A DNA stretch of 23,500 nucleotides, from positions 1-23,500 of IMG/VR virus record IMGVR_UViG_3300030119_000557; one strand, 5' to 3'. Both the position numbers and the translations under genes were made by a program. Positions 7,740 through 23,500 of this stretch are shown piece by piece. Numbering within the stretch: position 1 is the first letter of the stretch; every line of letters starts with the position of its first letter. The DNA comes from a virus. The notes below the pieces were generated by a model that worked only from the letters and a program-made list of their open reading frames with translations, ran no database searches and was not told the DNA's origin.

Positions 7740-8384
7740 ATGGCTTATCTTAACATTAACATTCCAACAGTGTATGCTAAAGTAAAGAAAGAATACTTAT
7801 ATGATCTCGATCCTAAGTATAAAAAAGAAAGTCTTGATTGCGTTATCTTTGGTATGGCGAGTATCACGGGGCGTTCATTACTTTTTCACTGTATGTTACC
7901 CAACGGTGCGGTCTATTGGAGGTTGCCTATCTCAGCGTTTTTCCAAAAACATTTTCCTAGAACCGAAGTGCCAGATATGTCGGTTGACCAGTTGGAATTG
8001 TGGAATTGTTTTAGTTACTATCCTAGTTGCACTGAATTTGATTTTCTTAGTGGTCAGCGTGGCAAATTTTTAGGAAAGGATAAGAAATTTTATCATGGAG
8101 AATATCAGTTTACAATCGACTGGGCGAGTCCAGAAATTAATGAAATCGATGCTGAACATTCTGAGATTCCTCAAGAACATAAGTGTGCACACATTTTGGC
8201 ACTTGATAACGGGAATTATGCTGCTCAGCCTAATAATCGTATCCTTTGGAGCGTTTCTAACTATACTACTGATCGATCTTGGCCAGACTATAAAGTTCAA
8301 ACTACAGAGTGGTCAGTCGAAAACAAAGATTGGGTGACAGATGATACAGACGATATGTTTTACAAAATTAAGGAGAAAAAATGA
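7740..8384 (+). CDS. Conserved phage protein of unknown function
   Basis: Not assigned. The 214-residue product has an aromatic-rich globular sequence: FGMASITGRSLLFHCMLPNG (about 37-56), VYWRLPISAFFQ, LELWNCFSYYPSCTEFDFL with two cysteines, then YQFTIDWASP. After that come an acidic stretch, a CAHILALDNGNYAAQPNNRI segment and WSVSNYTTDRSWPDYKVQT. I recognise this combination as a widespread marine phage protein encoded just before the endolysin. No enzymatic motif is evident. Its stop overlaps the endolysin start as ATGA (8381-8384), so the two are probably co-translated, which hints at a lysis-linked or late role. Confidence 0.7.
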   Translation: MAYLNINIPTVYAKVKKEYLYDLDPKYKKESLDCVIFGMASITGRSLLFHCMLPNGAVYWRLPISAFFQKHFPRTEVPDMSVDQLELWNCFSYYPSCTEFDFLSGQRGKFLGKDKKFYHGEYQFTIDWASPEINEIDAEHSEIPQEHKCAHILALDNGNYAAQPNNRILWSVSNYTTDRSWPDYKVQTTEWSVENKDWVTDDTDDMFYKIKEKK

Positions 8385-14553: not shown

Positions 14554-15633
14554 ATGGCATCAACATATACATCACTCGGAGTAGAACTTCAGGTAACCGG
14601 CGAAAATGCGGGAACATGGGGTGATAAAACAAATACAAATTTACAAATATTACAACAATTAGTTGGAGGATTTAATCAAACATCAACTGCAGGCGGAGCA
14701 GGGACAACTGCATTAGATGTTGTAGACGGAAACACTACTGGAACAGCTCAACAAAACATGATTGAGTTGACAGGAACAATCACTGGTAACAGAGTAATTA
14801 CTATTCCAATAGACATCGAAAGAATGTACATTATAAGAAATTCTACATCGGGTGCATACACCGTAGAATTTAAATATGCATCAGGTTCAGGGTCGAGCGT
14901 AACTTTTGCAGCCACAGATAAAGGGACAAAACTGCTTTACGCAAAAGCTGATGACGTTACTAACCCTAACATCATCGATGTCGGCATGGTTGATTTAGCT
15001 GGTGTTCAAACATTAACAAATAAAACTTTAACATCACCTGCAATAGGAACTTCAATTTTAGATACTGGCGGAGCTGAGTTATTAAAAGTTACAGCAACTG
15101 GTTCTGCTGTAAACGAGTTAACTCTTGCAAACGCAGCGACAACAAATAATCCAACATTATCAGCAACAGGCGATGATTCAAACGTTGGTATTGATTTGAC
15201 TCCAAAAGGTTTAGGAGCAGTTAAATTTACAAGTATTGGTAGCATCGAAGCTTTACAAGAAAGAGCAACAATAGCTGCTACAGGTACAACTGGAACAGTA
15301 ACTTTCGATTTACTTACACAAGCAGTGCTCTACCATACATCAAACGCAGCGGGTAACTTCACAGTAAACTTCAGAGGCGATGGTTCAAATTCTTTGAACA
15401 ACGTTATGGCGACTGGTGATTCAATGACAGCTGCTTTTATAACAACTCAAGGTGGAAGTGCCTACTATAATTCTGCTGTGCAAGTAGACGGTTCAGGTGT
15501 TACTCCAGAATGGCAAGGTGGAACTGCACCTTCAGCTGGAAATACAAACTCGAACGATATTTACACATACGTAATTGTAAAAACTGGTGATGCAACATTC
15601 AAAGTGTTTGCAGCACAAAGTCAATTTGCGTAA
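14554..15633 (+). CDS. Tail fibre protein
   Basis: The 359 residues begin TSLGVELQVTGENAGTWGDK (5-24) and TNTNLQILQQLVGGF, an N-terminal pattern I recognise from fibre and collar proteins of marine phages. DLAGVQTLTNKTLTSPAIGT (about 146-165) is a second recurring fibre motif, followed by GIDLTPKGLGAVKF (about 212-225), typical of beta-helical shaft segments. The C-terminal half is beta-rich without enzymatic motifs. It lies in the fibre module and ends 20 bases before the glycine-rich adhesin. It probably forms or attaches the shaft carrying the receptor-binding tip. Confidence 0.75.
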   Translation: MASTYTSLGVELQVTGENAGTWGDKTNTNLQILQQLVGGFNQTSTAGGAGTTALDVVDGNTTGTAQQNMIELTGTITGNRVITIPIDIERMYIIRNSTSGAYTVEFKYASGSGSSVTFAATDKGTKLLYAKADDVTNPNIIDVGMVDLAGVQTLTNKTLTSPAIGTSILDTGGAELLKVTATGSAVNELTLANAATTNNPTLSATGDDSNVGIDLTPKGLGAVKFTSIGSIEALQERATIAATGTTGTVTFDLLTQAVLYHTSNAAGNFTVNFRGDGSNSLNNVMATGDSMTAAFITTQGGSAYYNSAVQVDGSGVTPEWQGGTAPSAGNTNSNDIYTYVIVKTGDATFKVFAAQSQFA

Positions 15634-15653: not shown

Positions 15654-16679
15654 GTGCCTATTATTTCGACAATCGGAGCAGCAACCGCAAAAGGTTTTGG
15701 CTTTTCATCTGGTAGTAATCCACCAGTATCTTTTGATTATTTAGTAGTAGCCGGCGGGGGATCTGGCGGCGAAAATGTTGGAGGGGGAGGTGGAGCCGGC
15801 GGGTTTCGAACTTCTTTTCCAGGCGGAACAAAAATTGAATTAGATGGCGGAGGACACACTATAACTGTTGGAGCTGGTGGAGGACCTGCAACTCCAGGAG
15901 TATTATCTTTTTCTGCTGCACCTGTATCTCCAAATTACGATTACACGAGTGGAGAAAACAGTACCTTCAGCAACATCTCATCAACAGGTGGAGGAAAAGG
16001 CGGACAAATCGGACAAGTATCAGCTGCTCCAGGTGGATCTGGTGGCGGAGGCGGTTCAAATTATAACTCAGGCGGTCAGTCTGGGGCTGCTGGAAATGCT
16101 GGAGGCTATTCCCCGTCTGAAGGAAATGCTGGTGGAACTGGAGACAACGTAAGAAGAAACGATTTAGGTTTTGGCGGTGCCGGTGGCGGTGGCCACAATG
16201 CGACTGGAACAAACGGCGGGCCGGGCGGGACCGGCGGGGCTGGGGGTAACGGAACTGCATCAAATATTACCGGCTCATCTGTAACGTACGCTGGCGGTGG
16301 CGGTGGTGGAATTTACAATCATGGAAATCCATATGCACCTCCTGGTCTTGGTGGAGCCGGCGGATCTGGCGGGGGCGGTCATGGGGCTCCAACAGTAGCA
16401 GCCTTAGCTTTTCATAATTCTAATCAACCAGGTACTGCAGGAACCGCAAACACAGGAGGCGGAGGAGCTGGAACAGCTTACGGATACAATATTAGAAACG
16501 ACGTAACACCTGCTGCAAACATACCTTATGGTTATGCTGGTGGTTCAGGTGTAATTGTTTTAAGAGCACCAGGAGATTCAAAATTTAATGTATCACCAGG
16601 TTCAAACACAAAAGTTACAGATGGCCCTTCTGGAGATTTGATTGCAACATTTAACGTAACAGGGACACTAACTATATAA
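15654..16679 (+). CDS. Glycine-rich tail tip protein / adhesin
   Basis: A 341-residue protein starting at GTG after an AGAAGGAGG ribosome-binding site. After FDYLVVAGGGSGGENVGGGG (28-47) most of residues 33-280 consist of glycine runs split by short variable loops. It closes with SGVIVLRAPGDS. Glycine-rich tips of this kind, as in T-even gp38 adhesins, can form polyglycine-II lattices with variable loops that bind the host; FDYLVVAGGG is widespread in marine phage fibres. The segment is markedly GC-richer than the neighbours because of glycine codons. The last base is shared with the next gene. Receptor and exact role are inferred. Confidence 0.75.
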   Translation: MPIISTIGAATAKGFGFSSGSNPPVSFDYLVVAGGGSGGENVGGGGGAGGFRTSFPGGTKIELDGGGHTITVGAGGGPATPGVLSFSAAPVSPNYDYTSGENSTFSNISSTGGGKGGQIGQVSAAPGGSGGGGGSNYNSGGQSGAAGNAGGYSPSEGNAGGTGDNVRRNDLGFGGAGGGGHNATGTNGGPGGTGGAGGNGTASNITGSSVTYAGGGGGGIYNHGNPYAPPGLGGAGGSGGGGHGAPTVAALAFHNSNQPGTAGTANTGGGGAGTAYGYNIRNDVTPAANIPYGYAGGSGVIVLRAPGDSKFNVSPGSNTKVTDGPSGDLIATFNVTGTLTI

Positions 16680-17158
16680 TGGCTCACTTTGCTAAATTAG
16701 ATGAAAACAATGTTGTAACAAAGGTAGTTGTTGTTGGGAACGACATTCCTACAGCTAATGGACCTTTGGGTGAAAACGATATGCATCCTGATGGAGAAGC
16801 TTGGTGTGCACAAACATTAGGCGGTGTTTGGAAACAAACTTCTTATAATGGAAATTTTAGAAATAAATTTGCATGTAAAGGAAATATTTATAATTCTGAT
16901 ATAGATATTTTTACCTGTGCACAACCTTATTCAGATTTTACATTAAACCCAGCAACTGGAAATTGGGAAGGACCTGTGCCTGCACCAAATCAATTTGAGT
17001 ATCAATTTCAAGGACAAATTGATGAAGAAGGAAATATTGGTACAGTTACAGGCATAATAATTCGAATCTCATGGAATACAGCAGAGCAACGTTGGGAAGG
17101 TGTAGATATGGTTGGGGATAATCATATTTGGGATCCAAACACTAGCACTTGGTCATAA
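16679..17158 (+). CDS. Conserved phage protein, fibre-module partner
   Basis: The 159-residue protein starts MAHFAKLDENNVVTKVVVVG and has WKQTSYNGNFRNKFACKGNI (51-70), FTCAQPYSDFTLNPATGNWE and a C-terminal WDPNTSTWS. This is a very common family in cyanophages and other marine phages, often next to tail genes. Its function is not established; structural or assembly roles have been suggested. Tryptophan-rich loops and a two-part layout resemble small beta domains. Its start overlaps the stop of the glycine-rich gene by one base, so both are probably translated together. Confidence 0.75.
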   Translation: MAHFAKLDENNVVTKVVVVGNDIPTANGPLGENDMHPDGEAWCAQTLGGVWKQTSYNGNFRNKFACKGNIYNSDIDIFTCAQPYSDFTLNPATGNWEGPVPAPNQFEYQFQGQIDEEGNIGTVTGIIIRISWNTAEQRWEGVDMVGDNHIWDPNTSTWS

Positions 17159-17205: not shown

Positions 17206-17823
17206 ATGGTTTTAGAACATTATTATTATTGGTTTCGAAAAGTCCTTCCAGAATCTTTTTGTAAACATGTTATAAAATTAGCAAAAAAACAGAATAGCAC
17301 AAAAGGATTAGTTTTTGGAGAAGAAAAAAAGGGTTGGAAAAAAACAAAAGAGGGAACTAAATTAAGGGATTCGGATTTAGTTTGGTTACGTGATGAATGG
17401 ATTTTAAGACAGATTTACCCTATCATAAAACAAGCTAATAAAGCAGCTGGTTGGAATTTTGAAATTAACACATCCGAAAGTATACAATTTACAATATACG
17501 GTAAAAATCAGCATTATGGCTGGCACACTGATTGTAGATCTGTACCTTATGATACCCCAAAAGATCCTAATTTACACGGTAGATTAAGAAAGCTATCAAC
17601 AAGTATAATATTAAATGACCCTAGTGAATATAAAGGGGGTGAGTTTGAGATTGAGTTTCCAATTGAAGGTAAAAAGGGATATAAAAGAGAAGTGGTAAAA
17701 CAATTAGATTCTGTTGGATCTGTTCTAGTTTTTCCGTCGTTTGTTAGACATAGAGTTAGACCTGTCACAAAAGGAGTAAGATACTCTGCTGTGCTTTGGT
17801 ATTTAGGGAGTCCTTGGAGATGA
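17206..17823 (+). CDS. Fe(II)/2-oxoglutarate dioxygenase, PKHD/prolyl-hydroxylase type
   Basis: Hydroxylase-type enzyme using Fe(II), oxygen and 2-oxoglutarate. The double-stranded beta-helix core spans about 90-203. HYGWHTDC gives His107-x-Asp109, RKLSTSIILND is the following core strand, and GGEFEIEF precedes VLVFPSFVRHRVRPVTKGVR with the distal His182 and 2-oxoglutarate-binding Arg192. The length (205) fits compact PKHD hydroxylases. Substrate is unknown: free amino acid, protein side chain or lipid are possible. It leads a plus-strand set, and its stop overlaps the next start as ATGA. No clear ribosome-binding site precedes the ATG; the AT-rich leader is the only visible control region. 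Confidence 0.85.
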   Translation: MVLEHYYYWFRKVLPESFCKHVIKLAKKQNSTKGLVFGEEKKGWKKTKEGTKLRDSDLVWLRDEWILRQIYPIIKQANKAAGWNFEINTSESIQFTIYGKNQHYGWHTDCRSVPYDTPKDPNLHGRLRKLSTSIILNDPSEYKGGEFEIEFPIEGKKGYKREVVKQLDSVGSVLVFPSFVRHRVRPVTKGVRYSAVLWYLGSPWR

Positions 17824-18425
17824 GTTTTGAAAAAAATGGATACGTTGTAATGAAGAATTTTATTTCAAAAGAAATTGCTTCTTTATCTTCTCATTATTTA
17901 ATGCAAAGGGGTGAAGTGCATAAAATTTTTAGAGATAATAATTTAATATCTCCCTTTGATAATAGGTTTGGTGTGTTTGGTGATGAACAAGTCCCAAATG
18001 TTTTTTGTTTATACGGAGACCCCTTAACAGATACTATAATGAAACTTATGACACCCGAAGTTGAGCAAGCCTCAAAAAGAAAACTAATTCCTAATTATAC
18101 TTATTGTAGAATATATGAAAAAGGATGTGATTTAAAAAGACATAGAGACAGATTAGCGTGTGAAATTTCTGGAACAATTTTTTTAGGAGGAGACCCTTGG
18201 CCAATATTTATAGATCCGACTGGTTCTACAAAAGGTAAAGGGAAGAAAATAGTTTTAAAAGAGGGAGACGCTTTATTTTATAAAGGTAATCTTTTAGATC
18301 ATTGGAGAGAGCCATTTGAAGGTAATATATGTATTCAAACTTTTATTCATTATAATACAACTACAACTCCTAACGCTAAAAATTTTGATGGTAGGCCTTG
18401 TTTAGGTTTTCCAATCATTGATTGA
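17820..18425 (+). CDS. Fe(II)/2-oxoglutarate dioxygenase-like protein
   Basis: A 201-residue oxygenase-like protein. ATG at 17820 is chosen over an upstream TTG because it gives an ATGA junction with the previous stop and follows TTGGAG. CRIYEKGCDLKRHRDRLACE (96-115) supplies His108-x-Asp110, VLKEGDALFYKG is the core strand, and LLDHWREPFEG carries the distal His161. The usual Arg/Lys that grips 2-oxoglutarate ten residues on is not obvious; Arg163 beside the distal His may substitute. An HWREPF-type motif is known among phage and bacterial members. Substrate unknown. Coupled on both sides, so part of one operon. Confidence 0.75.
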   Translation: MSFEKNGYVVMKNFISKEIASLSSHYLMQRGEVHKIFRDNNLISPFDNRFGVFGDEQVPNVFCLYGDPLTDTIMKLMTPEVEQASKRKLIPNYTYCRIYEKGCDLKRHRDRLACEISGTIFLGGDPWPIFIDPTGSTKGKGKKIVLKEGDALFYKGNLLDHWREPFEGNICIQTFIHYNTTTTPNAKNFDGRPCLGFPIID

Positions 18426-18988
18426 TGAAAAAAGAAACTCACGTTTTAACTGTTGATTTGGACTGGATACAGAATCAAAGACAGGGCTTAGAGCTAATTA
18501 AATTTTTAAAACCATTAGTAGAAAGCACTGAAACTATTTTCATAAGAGGACATCAACAAGCTTATGATTTAGTTGAACCTGAATCTCATTTATATAATAT
18601 AGATCATCATCACGATATGGCTTATGGGACTGAAGATAAAGCTTATAGAAATGCTATTGAGAAAGGTATTTTTTGTGAAGGTGAATGGGTATTAGCTGCA
18701 GTAAAGCATAAAAAATTAAAATCTTATACATGGATAAAAAATTATAATTCCTCAATGATTTATGCTAATGTCTCTCAACCAATAAGAGCTTTAGCTATTT
18801 TTCGAATGTTTGATGAATTAAAAGATTTTGAAAAAACTATGCCTAAGTTTAAAAGAATAATTATTTGTGAAAGTTTAGATTATGAGCCTGAGACTCCATT
18901 TTATTACGCTCTCTTTAAGTGTTTAGCAAAAAACTATAAAGAAGTGATTAATGATAATTTCAAATCTTATAGGCAAATAAAAAATTAA
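18425..18988 (+). CDS. Protein with IDHHHD motif, possible metal-binding enzyme
   Basis: Not confidently recognised. The 187-residue product begins THVLTVDLDWIQNQRQGLEL (5-24; Asp11, Asp13), then FIRGHQQAYDLV, YNIDHHHDMAYG (57-68) and SYTWIKNYNSS (100-110). The His/Asp cluster resembles metal sites of arginase-like or UPF0489-type proteins, and related sequences occur in cyanophages, without a proven activity. ATG 18425 is chosen over TTG 18422; it overlaps the preceding stop (TGATG). Its own stop shares TTAA with the stop of the convergent minus-strand gene. As the only non-oxygenase in the plus set with a catalytic look, it may act on the same substrate. Confidence 0.55.
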   Translation: MKKETHVLTVDLDWIQNQRQGLELIKFLKPLVESTETIFIRGHQQAYDLVEPESHLYNIDHHHDMAYGTEDKAYRNAIEKGIFCEGEWVLAAVKHKKLKSYTWIKNYNSSMIYANVSQPIRALAIFRMFDELKDFEKTMPKFKRIIICESLDYEPETPFYYALFKCLAKNYKEVINDNFKSYRQIKN

Positions 18989-19194
18989 ATTCTTTTATAT
19001 TGAAATCTATCAACAACAATCTGCAAATCAGCAATTTTTTTTTCATAATCTTCATTTATCTTCAATACTGTCGCTAATTGTAATTCTAGTCTTTTATTTT
19101 TGTGGATTAATTCTTTATTTAATATTACTTCACTATCTATTTGTGCTCTAGATAATTTTACCTCTGCTTTTAAATTTTTGATTTCCTCTTCCAT
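18985..19194 (-). CDS. Short coiled-coil protein on the minus strand
   Basis: The 69-residue product is a continuous coiled coil: MEEEIKNLKAEVKLSRAQID, then KNKRLELQLATVLKINEDYE and KKIADLQIVVDRFQYKRI, with regular leucine/isoleucine spacing. It is the only minus-strand gene inside the plus-strand cassette and occupies an otherwise empty 206-base gap. It lacks a good ribosome-binding site. Similar short coiled coils appear near oxygenase genes in cyanophages, which together with its heptad regularity favours a real gene. Possibly a subunit adaptor; no function assigned. Confidence 0.6.
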   Translation of the reverse strand: MEEEIKNLKAEVKLSRAQIDSEVILNKELIHKNKRLELQLATVLKINEDYEKKIADLQIVVDRFQYKRI

Positions 19195-19235
19195 ATGGAC
19201 TTTTTATAATATATAAATGGTTCACTGTAAATAGC
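19195..19235. promoter_or_regulatory. Short AT-rich divergent spacer with TATAAT
   Basis: A 41-base spacer between the divergent coiled-coil gene and the next plus-strand oxygenase. TATAAT at 19205-19210 matches a -10 box, but no -35 lies at a normal distance. TATAAATG at 19212-19219 resembles a T4-type late promoter by one mismatch. AT-richness makes chance matches likely. Confidence 0.25.
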
Positions 19236-19877
19236 ATGATAGAATATATAACAATTTTTCCTGAAAGTGTATGTAGGCAAAATATAGATCTTCCTGAAAA
19301 AGAGAGGAAAGCGATAGCTCAACACATTAAAAAATATAAGTGGATAACTTGTGCTAATCCTGAACAGTTACCATCTACAGATGCATCCGCTAATAAATAC
19401 ATTTTTCATGAACCCATCTATGATAATTTAAAAAAGAATATACTTAAAGAATTTGAAAGGTATGCAAGGCTTCATTATTTATATACAAACAAATTTATGA
19501 TAACGACCTCTTGGGCTACTAGAAGTAAACCCAAAGACGTATCCTATTATCATAGCCATAATAATTGTATGTTTTCTGGAGTTTATTATCCTGAAGTAAG
19601 AAAAGGAGAAAAAATTATTTTTAGACATAAAGATGCAATGATACATCAATTTAGATGCAATCCAAAAGCATACAATCATTATAATTCTCTTGATGTAAAC
19701 ATAAGTGTAAAATCAGGTGACGTAGTATTTTTTCGTTCACATATGTTGCACTCAATACCTCACAATCTCACAAACAAAAATAGATATTCTATTGCATTCA
19801 ATTTTATTCCTACTGGATATATAGGGTATGGAGATTCAGCTTTAGAAATACATTATGAAGAATTCAAAACAAAATAA
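19236..19877 (+). CDS. 2OG-Fe(II) oxygenase, HxH-type family
   Basis: A 213-residue member of the putative 2OG-Fe(II) oxygenase family with the YHSHNNCMFSGVYYPEV signature (105-121; His106, His108). A SGDVVFFRSHMLHSIPHNLT segment follows with distal His172, and NRYSIAFNFIPTGYIGYGDS has Arg183 as likely 2-oxoglutarate ligand. This family places a second His where most oxygenases have Asp or Glu, so metal geometry is less certain. It starts a new plus-strand group after the divergent spacer and overlaps the next oxygenase by 23 bases. Substrate unknown. Confidence 0.8.
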   Translation: MIEYITIFPESVCRQNIDLPEKERKAIAQHIKKYKWITCANPEQLPSTDASANKYIFHEPIYDNLKKNILKEFERYARLHYLYTNKFMITTSWATRSKPKDVSYYHSHNNCMFSGVYYPEVRKGEKIIFRHKDAMIHQFRCNPKAYNHYNSLDVNISVKSGDVVFFRSHMLHSIPHNLTNKNRYSIAFNFIPTGYIGYGDSALEIHYEEFKTK

Positions 19878-20439
19878 GATACCAACTTTTATTGAACAAT
19901 TTAAAATATCGCCAAAACTTTGTGATGATATGGTTACATATTTTAATTCAAATAAAACTCGTCATGCTGTCGGAGAAGTTGGAGAACACCACATACAAAA
20001 ACATATTAAAGATTCTATTGATCTTTGTTGTACACCTAAAGATAATACTTATCCCTTACGTGATTTTTATCTAGCTATTAATAAATGCATGCTTCAGTAT
20101 CAAGAAATATATCCTGAACTTAAAAGTCATTATTCATTTGATTTTACCGCTAATTACAATATTCAATATTATCCAAAGGGGGGTGGGTTCAAAGATTGGC
20201 ATAATGAAAGAATGAGTCCACAGGTCAACAATAGAATATTAGTTTTCATGACATACCTTAATGATGTGCCTAATGCTGGCACTGAATTTAAATATCAAAA
20301 GTTTAAATCTAAAGCTAAAAAAGGTTTGACTTTAATCTGGCCACCAGACTTCACCCATACTCATCGTGGTATAGTTACAGAGAAACATGAAAAAATTATA
20401 GCAACGGGATGGATAGACTTTCTTCCACAGAATCAATAG
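19855..20439 (+). CDS. Prolyl-4-hydroxylase-like 2OG oxygenase, HxE type
   Basis: A 194-residue protein with the prolyl-4-hydroxylase core. NIQYYPKGGGFKDWHNERMS (102-121) gives His116-x-Glu118, NRILVFMTYLNDVPNAGTEF is the signature strand pair, and GLTLIWPPDFTHTHRGIV supplies His168/His170. Lys180 ten residues after His170 matches the lysine that binds 2-oxoglutarate in this family. Glu replaces the usual Asp. The N-terminal half (FKISPKLCDDMVTYF; KHIKDSIDLC) is shared with the minus-strand gene 21721-22278, a clear paralog. Its start lies inside the previous gene, and the next gene begins inside it, so translation is probably coupled. Confidence 0.82.
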   Translation: MKNSKQNKIPTFIEQFKISPKLCDDMVTYFNSNKTRHAVGEVGEHHIQKHIKDSIDLCCTPKDNTYPLRDFYLAINKCMLQYQEIYPELKSHYSFDFTANYNIQYYPKGGGFKDWHNERMSPQVNNRILVFMTYLNDVPNAGTEFKYQKFKSKAKKGLTLIWPPDFTHTHRGIVTEKHEKIIATGWIDFLPQNQ

Positions 20440-20768
20440 TTAAAAGATTTTCTAAATGCTTAACAAGCATTGAATACCCCAAAGTAAAATCTTCATGGAA
20501 CATAGCCGGCATATTAAAAAATAGGAATGCATTTTATAAGTATGATGTGAGAGGTATGAAGATGCTTTCAAGCGGTGAGTGGGCTAAATCTGGAACAACT
20601 AAAACTAAAGCAGACAAAATGGTTTTTGAATTAAAACGTCATTGGTTAATCATTGATATAAAAGAGTTACATGATTATTTAAAAATAACAAAAACAAGAA
20701 TAGTAAAATTAGAAGAACTTGATAGGTGCTTGGAATGGAATATTAAAGTTTTACGTAATTCAAATTGA
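20409..20768 (+). CDS. Uncharacterised small protein, end of plus-strand cassette
   Basis: Not recognised. The 119-residue product has TSIEYPKVKSSWNIAGILKN (19-38), an AFYKYDVRGMKMLSSGEWAK segment and a helical C-terminus (ADKMVFELKRHWLIIDIKEL; RIVKLEELDRCLEWNI). The ATG at 20409 overlaps the oxygenase stop by 31 bases; no better start is in frame. Its final 26 bases overlap the end of the convergent minus-strand oxygenase. It has no His-x-Asp motif. Real coding is likely from the cassette's dense packing, but function is unknown. Confidence 0.5.
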   Translation: MDRLSSTESIVKRFSKCLTSIEYPKVKSSWNIAGILKNRNAFYKYDVRGMKMLSSGEWAKSGTTKTKADKMVFELKRHWLIIDIKELHDYLKITKTRIVKLEELDRCLEWNIKVLRNSN

Positions 20769-21243
20769 TAACAACTCTTCTATATTTATCTGAACAATTA
20801 GCTCCAGTGTGCTGCATTTTGTAATCAAACTCTACAAATTTATTTTCTTCTGAGCCAACTTTTTTTCCATTACTAAATTTTGTATATCCATTATTTGTAT
20901 CTAAATAATATATTCCAGTATAAATTTTTAGACCTCTAGGAGCATTTGGATTATCGATGTGCATAAAAGATTCTCTTGGTTTTTCAGTTTGCGGCAATAG
21001 ATTCACTTTAGCTTTAATTAATACATAAGGATTTATTTTTACCAGTATGGGTTTAATCATTTCAAAATATGGAGATCTAGGAGCTCCATGATTATAGAAA
21101 TTATGTATAAACTGAAAATCATATCTTGCTCCTGTATAACCAACTATACTATCATTAAAATACCATGGGAATGTTTTAGAATAAATTTCATTTCTAATGT
21201 GCTCGAAATCAGAACTATGTAAAAAATTTTTATATATCTTCAT
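20743..21243 (-). CDS. 2OG-Fe(II) oxygenase-like protein, last of minus operon
   Basis: The 166-residue product has FPWYFNDSIV (25-34), IHNFYN, KAKVNLLPQTEKPRESFMHI (78-97 region, His95-x-Asp97), IYTGIYYLDTNNGYTKFSNG (107-126) and FVEFDYKMQHTGANCSD with distal His145. YRRVVINLNY then gives the 2-oxoglutarate-type Arg156. This lean architecture matches small oxygenases common in T4-like cyanophages, with a proposed but unproven hydroxylase role. It is a paralog of 21230-21724 on the same strand and overlaps its end by 14 bases. It converges on the 20409 gene. Confidence 0.78.
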   Translation of the reverse strand: MKIYKNFLHSSDFEHIRNEIYSKTFPWYFNDSIVGYTGARYDFQFIHNFYNHGAPRSPYFEMIKPILVKINPYVLIKAKVNLLPQTEKPRESFMHIDNPNAPRGLKIYTGIYYLDTNNGYTKFSNGKKVGSEENKFVEFDYKMQHTGANCSDKYRRVVINLNYVKL

Positions 21244-21724
21244 CTGTAAAATAATTAAAATTTATAACTATCCTTTTGTCTGTATCATTTTGTGTTACAG
21301 CTCGATGCTTGGTATTTTTAAATATAATAAATTTGTTAGCTTCACTTTTAATTATTTTTTTTGGTTTTTTAAATTCAGTATATCCATTATTGTTATTCAA
21401 ATAAAATATTGCTGTTCTATGTTTGGGGTCTTGTTCGTGATAGTCTGTATGGAAAGGTGTTTCAAAAATTTTATTTTTACTGACTGTAAGATTTGCTCTA
21501 ATGTGTAATAATTTTGAAGGTTTCATTAAAGGATAAAAAGGTTCAAGAAGATATGTAAAGTCAGAATTAGTTTGTCCAAATTTTATAAATAAATGTGAAA
21601 AGTAAGAAATTTTATCTCCATCTACAGAACTATCACTATAATACCAAGGAAAGTTTGTGCTGTTCATCACATCATAAGTAAGTTTATATTTTTCTTTTGT
21701 TAATGCTTTTTTAATTATCTTCAT
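21230..21724 (-). CDS. 2OG-Fe(II) oxygenase-like protein, paralog of its neighbour
   Basis: A 164-residue protein when started at the ATG at 21724, chosen because it forms an ATGA junction with the preceding stop (an upstream in-frame ATG at 21739 would add five residues). Motifs: NFPWYYSDSSVD (24-35), LLHIRANLTVS, ETPFHTDYHEQ (88-98; His92-x-Asp94), AIFYLNNNNGYTEF (105-118), FIIFKNTKHRAVTQND with His140, and KRIVINFNY with Arg151. Same layout and order as 20743-21243, so the pair arose by duplication. Substrate unknown; two similar enzymes may act on different positions. Confidence 0.78.
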   Translation of the reverse strand: MKIIKKALTKEKYKLTYDVMNSTNFPWYYSDSSVDGDKISYFSHLFIKFGQTNSDFTYLLEPFYPLMKPSKLLHIRANLTVSKNKIFETPFHTDYHEQDPKHRTAIFYLNNNNGYTEFKKPKKIIKSEANKFIIFKNTKHRAVTQNDTDKRIVINFNYFTDEDI

Positions 21725-22278
21725 ATAAAATTGTAACACCCAGTTATAATGTATTTTGTTTGATTACTTATTTGTCCTTTATGCATATGCGTAAAATCTG
21801 AAGGCCATATAAGAGTTAAACCTTTAATAGCTTGTGTTGTTATATTTTGATATTTAAAATTTGTTCCCCCATTTTTTACCGTGTTTAAATAAGTCATAAA
21901 AACTAGACACCTGTTAATAGGTCCATCTCTTTCACAATGCCAAATTTTATAACCTCCGTTCGGTTTATATTTTTGTATGTTATAAGGTTCAACACCTGAT
22001 GAAAATCGTGATAAGTCATTTACTTCAGGATATATTTTTATATACTCTTTTAAACAATTACCTAACTGTTTATTATAATCATCAAGTAAAGTATCACCAG
22101 CAGCCAAATTCATATCAATACTGTCTTTAATTTTTTTATCTCGATTACCATTACCAGTGGTGCCTACCTTTTGTCTGTGAATATTTTTTTCAAAATACGT
22201 AATTAAATCATCACATACTTTTCCATCTATGTACCAACCACCTATAAAACTATCTTTTTTGTAATTAACCTTTTTCAT
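21721..22278 (-). CDS. Prolyl-4-hydroxylase-like 2OG oxygenase, HxE type
   Basis: A 185-residue homolog of the plus-strand gene 19855-20439. Shared blocks are KVCDDLITYF, KKIKDSIDM, YNIQKYKPNGGYKIWHCERD (99-118; His114-x-Glu116), INRCLVFMTYLNTVKNGGTN and KGLTLIWPSDFTHMHKGQI with His164/His166. Lys175 is placed as the probable 2-oxoglutarate ligand. Its ATG lies 14 bases inside the halogenase end, so it is probably translated in coupling with it. This proximity suggests that halogenation and hydroxylation act on the same or a related substrate, which remains inference. Confidence 0.82.
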   Translation of the reverse strand: MKKVNYKKDSFIGGWYIDGKVCDDLITYFEKNIHRQKVGTTGNGNRDKKIKDSIDMNLAAGDTLLDDYNKQLGNCLKEYIKIYPEVNDLSRFSSGVEPYNIQKYKPNGGYKIWHCERDGPINRCLVFMTYLNTVKNGGTNFKYQNITTQAIKGLTLIWPSDFTHMHKGQISNQTKYIITGCYNFI

Positions 22279-23500
22279 GTATCTGTTTTAAATAATCATA
22301 TAATAGAGGCACTTTTGCAACAGCTTTATTCCATGTATTTTTTTTCATATTCAAATGATTAGCTATTTGTTTTAAGTCCGTTCTAAGTTCTTTTGTGTCA
22401 TAAAAAACATTTTCATACATCAAAGAAATTTTGTCTGCAGGGGCATAATCCATGCCGGCTGATATAAAAGAAAAACCGTGATCTGCTCCATTCTTAAAAT
22501 CTTTATATTTATTAAAGGCTGCTTGTAAAAAATATCCAGCTAACACTGGTCGTAAATTTACCACTCCATCATCCCAAGTTTTATTAAAATTTGCTTTCCA
22601 ATACGGTGTGTCTGTCCTTTGAGATAAAGCATAATGCATAGCAACGAATTCAGCAAATACATAGAAAGCATGCTTACAAGCAAAACTAAAAGCATCTTTC
22701 TCGTATTGTGTAACAACATCTCTTCTCAATGTCCTTGATAAATGAAACAAAAATTCATGCACTGAGTACAAACCATTACTCTCTAACGGTTCAATAAAAC
22801 CTGCTGATAAACCTATAGCAACTACATTTTTAACCCATAGTCTTTTTTGTATACCAACTCTCATCTTAATCTTTTTAAAATCTAAATCTCTTTTACCAAG
22901 GTAAGTTTTAAATTCTTTTAGTGCATCATCATCAGATATAAATTTATCAGAGTAGACATAACCTGTACCCATCCGTGACCACAGAGGGATATTCCATATC
23001 CAGCCATTGTTATAAGCTGTGCAATTAGTATAAAGATTTAGTTCTTTCTTTTTATTAGTATAAGGTATCCTCGTAGCCCAAGCAGAATTGTTAGGTAACA
23101 TATGCTCTAAATTTTCAAATGGCTCTTTTAATGTTTTTTCTAAAAGCATTGATTTAAATCCAGTGCAGTCAATATAAAGATCTGCTTTATGTTTTTTGTT
23201 TAAAGATAGTATTCCATCTTCATTTTGTTCTATTGTTCTAATTTCTTCTTTAATGTGTCTTACTCCATTTGGTTTACAGATGTTGTCTCTAAGCCAAATG
23301 CCAAATTTAGTTGCATCAAAATGAAAAGCAGAGTCTTTTTGGTAATTAAAATCTAATGTAGGTATAGGTTTGTCTGTGTATTTATTGGCGTTGACTAATG
23401 CCATTTGAGGAGACATACAATCGGCATAATCATTTAAAGGTGTTTTAGGAAAAGCCTCTTTTTTAAACCACCAGTCATTAACTCCTGTTGTATTACCTTC
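22265..23500 (-). CDS. Tryptophan-halogenase-type flavoprotein (5' partial)
   Basis: The C-terminal 411 residues of a FADH2-dependent halogenase. The frame stays open past the ATG at 23416 to the window edge (GVNDWWFKKEAFPKTPLNDY), so the true start and the FAD-binding GxGxxG lie outside. Visible signatures counted from the 23416 ATG: ADLYIDCTGFKS (78-89), GWIWNIPL (138-145), matching the WxWxIP motif that distinguishes these halogenases from monooxygenases, and NVVAIGLSAGFIEPLESNGL, the second FAD-contact region. The catalytic lysine region is beyond the edge. Viral halogenases of this family, one shown to iodinate, are known from cyanophages. It is the first gene of a coupled minus-strand operon with three oxygenases. 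Confidence 0.85.
   Translation of the reverse strand, partial: EGNTTGVNDWWFKKEAFPKTPLNDYADCMSPQMALVNANKYTDKPIPTLDFNYQKDSAFHFDATKFGIWLRDNICKPNGVRHIKEEIRTIEQNEDGILSLNKKHKADLYIDCTGFKSMLLEKTLKEPFENLEHMLPNNSAWATRIPYTNKKKELNLYTNCTAYNNGWIWNIPLWSRMGTGYVYSDKFISDDDALKEFKTYLGKRDLDFKKIKMRVGIQKRLWVKNVVAIGLSAGFIEPLESNGLYSVHEFLFHLSRTLRRDVVTQYEKDAFSFACKHAFYVFAEFVAMHYALSQRTDTPYWKANFNKTWDDGVVNLRPVLAGYFLQAAFNKYKDFKNGADHGFSFISAGMDYAPADKISLMYENVFYDTKELRTDLKQIANHLNMKKNTWNKAVAKVPLLYDYLKQIHEKG

Follow-up and report, generated by a model that had tools for sequence, protein, structure and literature searches.

The closest described counterparts of the locus analyzed here are the 2-oxoglutarate (2OG) oxygenase genes of HTVC023P-type pelagiphages, for which Wittmers et al. 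2022 (PMC9599517) reported eight distinct 2OG genes that are not orthologous and that often lie close together, with genes labeled 'ferrochelatases' as neighbors. In Mizuno et al. 2014 (PMC3909814), Fe(II)-dependent oxygenases (8) are counted among the host-recognition genes of marine phage metaviromic islands. Furthermore, 2OG genes and prnA were listed in cyanophages by Sullivan 2010 (PMC3037559) and Clokie 2010 (PMC2984593), the former also listing a ferrochelatase-domain protein. Here, we describe an island of seven oxygenase genes and a halogenase gene at the end of IMG/VR record IMGVR_UViG_3300030119_000557, the whole of which (23,500 nucleotides) was analyzed and is referred to below as the window.

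Sequence comparison places the phage of the window as HTVC023P-like and related to isolates that infect SAR11, an abundant bacterial group of the ocean. Cultured Pelagibacter phage HTVC023P has a major capsid protein with 88% identity to that of the window, and the two share with HTVC027P a series of virion genes that extends into the fiber region. HTVC023P gp65-67 lie at the position corresponding to the island. However, the pelagiphage oxygenase genes were described as nearby though not adjacent, whereas those of the window abut and overlap. Likewise, the word halogenase has 0 occurrences in the main text of that report (PMC9599517), while the window carries a halogenase gene (K), and the 'ferrochelatase' partner (B) is here a 2OG-fold enzyme as judged by its model. 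The islands of Mizuno et al. resemble the present locus in being variable fiber-region islands with Fe(II)-dependent oxygenase genes, but the available portion of the paper lists the oxygenases singly and describes neither arrays nor a halogenase (PMC3909814). No description of a halogenase combined with a 2OG array in pelagiphages was found in the literature searched. Features that appear to be new relative to that literature are the direct neighborhood of up to 12 oxygenase genes in one bounded slot, the optional presence of a halogenase there, the fold modeled for the 'ferrochelatase', the orphan protein G, the turnover of single genes, and the co-variation with fiber-side genes.

A bounded slot between fiber and virion structural genes

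From position 17206 to the record end, genes A, B, C, E, F, and G on the plus strand are followed by H, I, J, and K on the minus strand, with fiber-region genes upstream:

14554-15633, plus strand: FIB1, fiber-region tail protein upstream of the island (phrog_31104; fiber cluster f0, with FIB2)
15654-16679, plus strand: FIB2, Gly-rich fiber-like protein with a Gly_rich_2 domain (PF21722, E = 1.8e-9; fiber cluster f0)
16679-17158, plus strand: TAIL150, Trp-rich protein of about 159 amino acids and left boundary of the island (phrog_7759); almost every closed slot has it as the immediate left neighbor of the array
17206-17823, plus strand: A, prolyl hydroxylase (P4H)-like 2OG-Fe(II) oxygenase, core member (PF13640, E = 1.1e-13)
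17820-18425, plus strand: B, predicted 2OG-fold oxygenase, core member (phrog_2954, database label 'ferrochelatase', E = 4e-43; no Pfam match)
18425-18988, plus strand: C, IDHHHD protein, UPF0489-like, rare optional member (PF12640, 18.1 bits, below the cutoff of 27)
19236-19877, plus strand: E, oxygenase of the 2OG-FeII_Oxy_5 type with an HxH...H ligand pattern (PF13759, E = 8.7e-15)
19855-20439, plus strand: F, P4H-like 2OG oxygenase, HxE...H (PF13640, E = 6.7e-9)
20409-20768, plus strand: G, orphan conserved protein of 119 amino acids, usually the array member adjoining the virion structural gene in relatives
20743-21243, minus strand: H, 2OG oxygenase, absent from the relatives L003 and L004 (phrog_274, E = 4e-42; no Pfam match above cutoff)
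21230-21739, minus strand: I, 2OG oxygenase, kept in L003 and L004 (phrog_274, E = 1e-37; no Pfam match above cutoff)
21721-22278, minus strand: J, P4H-like 2OG oxygenase, absent from L003 and L004 (PF13640, E = 3e-5, slightly below the Pfam cutoff; phrog_61, E = 2e-32)
22265-23500, minus strand: K, flavin-dependent halogenase, N terminus cut by the record end (PF04820, Trp_halogenase, E = 3.8e-71)

The original prediction had placed seven oxygenases, a WxWxIP halogenase, and an IDHHHD protein beside the fiber genes. All nine of these genes are present at the coordinates given; the list had missed the conserved gene G (20409-20768), and K is truncated. Two close relatives fetched through K (L003 and L004) extend beyond the end of the record and encode a complete halogenase and, as the gene directly beyond it, a virion structural protein (VSP; phrog_3287, 'virion structural protein'). 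The cassette is therefore closed, bounded by TAIL150 and VSP. It represents one form of a variable island and is linked, rather than scattered, in related phage contigs, where the order fiber, TAIL150 (159 amino acids), 2 to 12 oxygenases, and VSP recurs. Across all sets, 120 closed slots (103 non-redundant) contain at least two oxygenases, and the largest array has 12.

Loci of the TAIL150 set were sampled without reference to enzyme genes, and 2 to 9 oxygenases were found in 21 of its 30 closed slots. A and B were both present in all 21 of these arrays, and G was found in only 7 slots. Among the nine empty slots, eight had divergent VSPs, and the remaining one (L271) had A and B across TAIL150, on its other side. 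The halogenase was carried by 2 of the 21 arrays in this set, 3 of 20 in the B set, and 4 of 44 in the G set. Searching by K yielded loci with at least three oxygenases in 64 of 80 cases and searching by B or G gave a similar oxygenase density, mostly without K. As search matches are ranked by similarity to the query, none of the counts from any of these sets is a population frequency. The halogenase is an optional island member, and arrays of equal size without it are the rule. Sulfotransferase and carbamoyltransferase genes occur inside some arrays, with glycosyltransferases downstream, and approximately 47% of non-redundant array pairs had no common member at the similarity threshold used.

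Related runs of genes are present in cyanomyoviruses. In Syn9, tail-fiber assembly genes precede a run (gp41-gp54) of two halogenases and then 2OG-type genes, the latter from families E, F, H, B, and DUF6445. A similar halogenase-oxygenase run is found in S-WAM1, while Sf-CH11 has a shorter set adjoining a structural protein; in all three phages, the run lies beside tail-fiber, fiber-assembly, or structural genes. Syn9 differs from the window phage in being a T4-like myovirus of cyanobacteria and in lacking G and C, and its genes carry separate annotations (halogenase, endonuclease V, minor coat protein, or ferrochelatase). Within this run, gp52 (L330 14618-15229, 'minor coat protein') matches the DUF6445 cluster, members of which keep HxD...H...R, and gp49 (L330 12802-13512) has, by eye, the look of a JmjC-type cupin.

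Enzyme families of the island

A His-x-Asp/Glu/His motif with a distal His had been proposed for each oxygenase, and these ligands are indeed conserved across family members: HxD in A, B, H, and I, HxE in F and J, and HxH in E, with a distal His in each. The predicted metal sites are intact in all seven. The HxD/E...H triad is present in A, B, F, H, I, and J. E departs from this canonical triad (HxH...H instead) and is filed only under the putative-oxygenase family PF13759; its ligands H106, H108, and H172 are nevertheless kept in 100% of 81 relatives. The same degree of conservation applies to H107, D109, H182, and R192 of A (100% of 81 relatives) and to H116 and H170 of F, with E118 conserved in 89%. 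In the H family (27 diverse sequences), H95, D97, T121, and H145 are invariant, and R156 is present in at least 90%. A basic residue, a candidate 2OG anchor, follows the distal His in A (R192), F (K180, 89%), and H/I (R156, at least 90%). Overall, the identification of all seven as oxygenase-type enzymes of the 2OG-Fe(II) fold class with intact metal sites is strong; that B depends on 2OG, and how the ligands of E function, is presumptive.

The label 'DNA endonuclease V' attached to phrog_274 was rejected for H and I: there was no such Pfam match up to an E value of 1, HxD...H...R is conserved instead, and the H/I profile matches that of A/F/J (E = 0.0005) with HxD...H...R aligned. No significant sequence relatives of H or I were found in the PDB. 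Since only F/J (46% identity) and H/I (33%) are detectable as paralogues by BLAST, recent tandem duplication was ruled out as the origin of the array. Moreover, the score of J is higher against L014 than against F.

B is the gene family reported as the 'ferrochelatase' partner of pelagiphage oxygenases. Its longest open reading frame begins with TTG at 17796, the likely start being ATG at 17820, and H108-x-D110 and H161 are invariant among 26 sequences. An AlphaFold (AF2) model built from 26 relatives (pLDDT 92.5) has the double-stranded beta-helix of a 2OG oxygenase. The best solved Foldseek match of this model was the EF-Tu prolyl hydroxylase (P4H; E = 4.6e-9), and VIA gave Z scores of 17.1 for SnoN and about 16 for P4H/PHD2 over 160 to 178 residues. 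No Pfam match was found up to an E value of 1, and the listed solved matches are 2OG enzymes; a ferrochelatase identity was rejected, and the model indicates that the phage 'ferrochelatase' too has a 2OG fold. B is linked to the other oxygenases by structure, as its profile did not significantly match that of A/F/J by HHalign. Where the basic 2OG-anchoring residue would stand, B has invariant Q173 and H177. A search of 84,980 species genomes of cellular organisms found B at only 8 loci, and at least 7 of these also have phage fiber, TAIL150, or VSP genes, which argues against a host-derived metabolic gene. Two slots (L243 and L244) are located on contigs of approximately 60 kb from single-cell Pelagibacteraceae genomes. 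These contigs are probably phage genomes derived from cells that were infected or carried phage, and they are consistent with a SAR11 host.

The halogenase K contains the motifs WIWNIP (WxWxIP) and AGFIEPLESNGL (catalytic Glu region, EPLES). As the record stops inside the gene, K matches phrog_2928 only from position 99 on. A complete orthologue is present in L003 and L004, and that of L004 (L004:1618-3153) additionally has the N-terminal flavin adenine dinucleotide (FAD)-binding GxGxxG and the catalytic Lys region, aligned with VirX1 (GGGSAGW and SIKLSIKF). VirX1 (PDB 6QGM), likewise a viral flavin-dependent halogenase, is the closest solved structure to this orthologue (375.7 bits), and the catalytic motifs of the two align. 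It is reportedly known from in vitro work with added substrates.

Apart from the window, C was found in L003, L004, and L191 only, and no significant sequence relatives were detected in the PDB. G occurs at 391 places in IMG/VR, and tblastn found none in 50,697 phage records, cultured phages included. Its AF2 model (pLDDT 85) weakly resembles PD-(D/E)XK nucleases, which form the top rows by VIA (Z of 8.0 for Eco15I, 7.3 for I-Ssp6803I, and about 5 to 6 for Hjc/RecU); the best Foldseek E values were 0.37 (PDB) and 0.014 (BFVD).

Gene turnover, co-variation, and candidate substrates

H and J are missing from L003 as clean single-gene units, corresponding to presence/absence segments of 490 bp (window 20751-21241) and 545 bp (window 21727-22272), and the DNA flanking these indels aligns with L003 at 89 to 92% identity. 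Ratios of nonsynonymous to synonymous substitution rates (dN/dS) of eight island genes (A, B, C, E, F, G, I, and K) against L003 and L004 ranged from 0.02 to 0.20, indicating that the compared genes are under purifying selection. Array content co-varied with TAIL150 (rank r = 0.16, p = 0.002) and with the fiber (rank r = 0.08, p = 0.01), and no correlation was observed with the adjoining VSP (r = -0.02, p = 0.72). Even the VSP-proximal half of the array had an r of 0.15 with TAIL150 (p = 0.002) versus -0.04 with VSP.

The best explanation, in our view an evenly poised one, is that the island is a swappable set of enzymes that hydroxylate, and sometimes halogenate, virion proteins involved in host recognition. 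In HTVC023P-type phages, such a modular oxygenase island, fixed between the fiber/TAIL150 genes and a virion structural gene, would act late, on newly made fiber-associated proteins (the Gly-rich fiber and/or TAIL150; members of the fiber cluster have a mean Gly content of 32%). The 2OG-Fe(II) oxygenases would add hydroxyls to side chains; aromatic residues would be halogenated by the flavin-dependent halogenase in phages that have it, with reduced flavin supplied by the host. The new hydroxyls may be capped, in other members of the phage group, by the sulfo-, carbamoyl-, and glycosyltransferases that islands contain or adjoin, and whole-gene gain or loss would alter the surface chemistry met by receptors or host defenses. 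Fiber-side virion proteins are proposed as the target because of the fixed position of the island, the accessory hydroxyl-capping enzymes, and the co-variation with TAIL150 and fiber rather than VSP. The original prediction had named an aromatic metabolite, a host surface molecule, and the phage's own virion proteins as possible substrates; position, co-variation, and the cyanomyovirus parallels favor the last, and this part of the proposal could equally well prove right or wrong. The late timing, the protein substrates, and the selective benefit are likewise presumed.

Several observations weigh against modification of virion proteins. The co-variation is weak, and block recombination of fiber and array could yield the same pattern without function. 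The Trp/Tyr content of fiber, TAIL150, and VSP did not differ between arrays with and without K, and a tie between halogenase presence and Trp/Tyr-rich flanking proteins was rejected. Furthermore, no flavin reductase was seen in the cassette, the basic residue that usually anchors 2OG downstream of the distal His is missing from B, whose cofactor use is thus presumptive, and some cyanophage halogenases lie outside such runs, that of S-B64 being located beside replication and repair genes.

Alternatively, the enzymes could modify a host or shared extracellular molecule (a surface glycan, lipid, or signal), resulting in superinfection block or altered adsorption. Sulfo-, carbamoyl-, and glycosyltransferase families usually work on sugars or small molecules. 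Genes for sulfotransferases, Nol-like carbamoyltransferases, and glycosyltransferases, within the islands or next to them, fit this possibility, as does the location of the island in the host-recognition region. However, oxygenases alone make up most arrays, and the closest solved folds of B include protein hydroxylases (EF-Tu prolyl hydroxylase), though the small-molecule enzyme SnoN scores equally; a host or extracellular target seems improbable. The relation of K to VirX1 and tryptophan halogenases, together with the antibiotic-tailoring SnoN as the top fold match of B by Z score, would suit the stepwise oxidation and halogenation of an aromatic metabolite. Such a small-molecule tailoring pathway is nonetheless quite unlikely: the halogenase is optional, membership shifts between close relatives, almost half of the array pairs share no member, and a scaffold-building enzyme was not seen in the window. 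The density of oxygenases together with a halogenase had originally been taken to suggest a multistep oxidative tailoring pathway, a view that the same-size arrays without halogenase do not bear out. As array content varies between close relatives and the halogenase is usually absent, independent modifications fit better than a fixed pathway.

The clean presence/absence of H and J and the great variation in array content might also reflect a recombination hotspot that gathers oxygenase genes, partly selfish and perhaps mobilized by G if it is a nuclease, as its borderline similarity to PD-(D/E)XK nucleases could suggest. Yet every island gene compared is under purifying selection, and A and B occur in all arrays of the TAIL150 set, in which G is found in so few slots; we consider a hotspot decidedly unlikely. 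For cyanophage 2OG oxygenases, the literature has put forward general metabolic or DNA roles (PMC3037559, PMC2984593), namely, 2-oxoglutarate drawdown and nitrogen signaling (Sullivan 2010, PMC3037559) and AlkB-like DNA repair (Weigele 2007, as cited in Clokie 2010, PMC2984593). The arrays, however, are located among structural rather than repair genes, many divergent non-paralogous families would be superfluous merely to burn 2OG, and the halogenase would be left unexplained, making such a role very improbable here.

Other genes of the window and biological implications

TAIL150 proteins (window 16679-17158 and relatives) are unusually Trp-rich, with a mean of 4.7 to 4.9% whether or not a halogenase is present. 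Between C and E, on the minus strand, lies an open reading frame for a coiled-coil-like protein of 69 amino acids (18985-19194) with no significant family match. Near the window start, a LAGLIDADG homing endonuclease gene (978-1514; PF00961, 29.5 bits, cutoff 23.1) lies upstream of a gene for a GroES-like co-chaperonin (2070-2519; PF00166), the latter within the virion gene block. A 214-amino-acid protein (7740-8384) clusters with HTVC023P gp44, which is annotated as PurM. It has only an insignificant PurM match in Pfam, and its PHROG label is ferredoxin; pelagiphage genes may be mislabeled as purM.

The reassignment of B is independent of the substrate and, if the modeled fold is right, removes the basis for the proposed heme/iron-insertion partnership of pelagiphage oxygenases. 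In its widest form, the proposal is of an undescribed combinatorial post-translational modification island, with up to 12 oxygenases and an optional halogenase, carbamoyltransferase, and sulfotransferase, that would rewrite tail-fiber chemistry in surface-ocean podoviruses and T4-like myoviruses and give viral halogenases a protein substrate; we advance this tentatively, with doubt somewhat outweighing confidence. Cultured HTVC023P, HTVC027P, and Syn9 make the question of virion modification testable. If these islands do decorate virion proteins, enzymatic modification of side chains would form a widespread and rapidly changing level of phage host recognition. It would also provide a substrate class for viral halogenases and for the many 2OG 'auxiliary metabolic genes' that are now explained as metabolism or repair.

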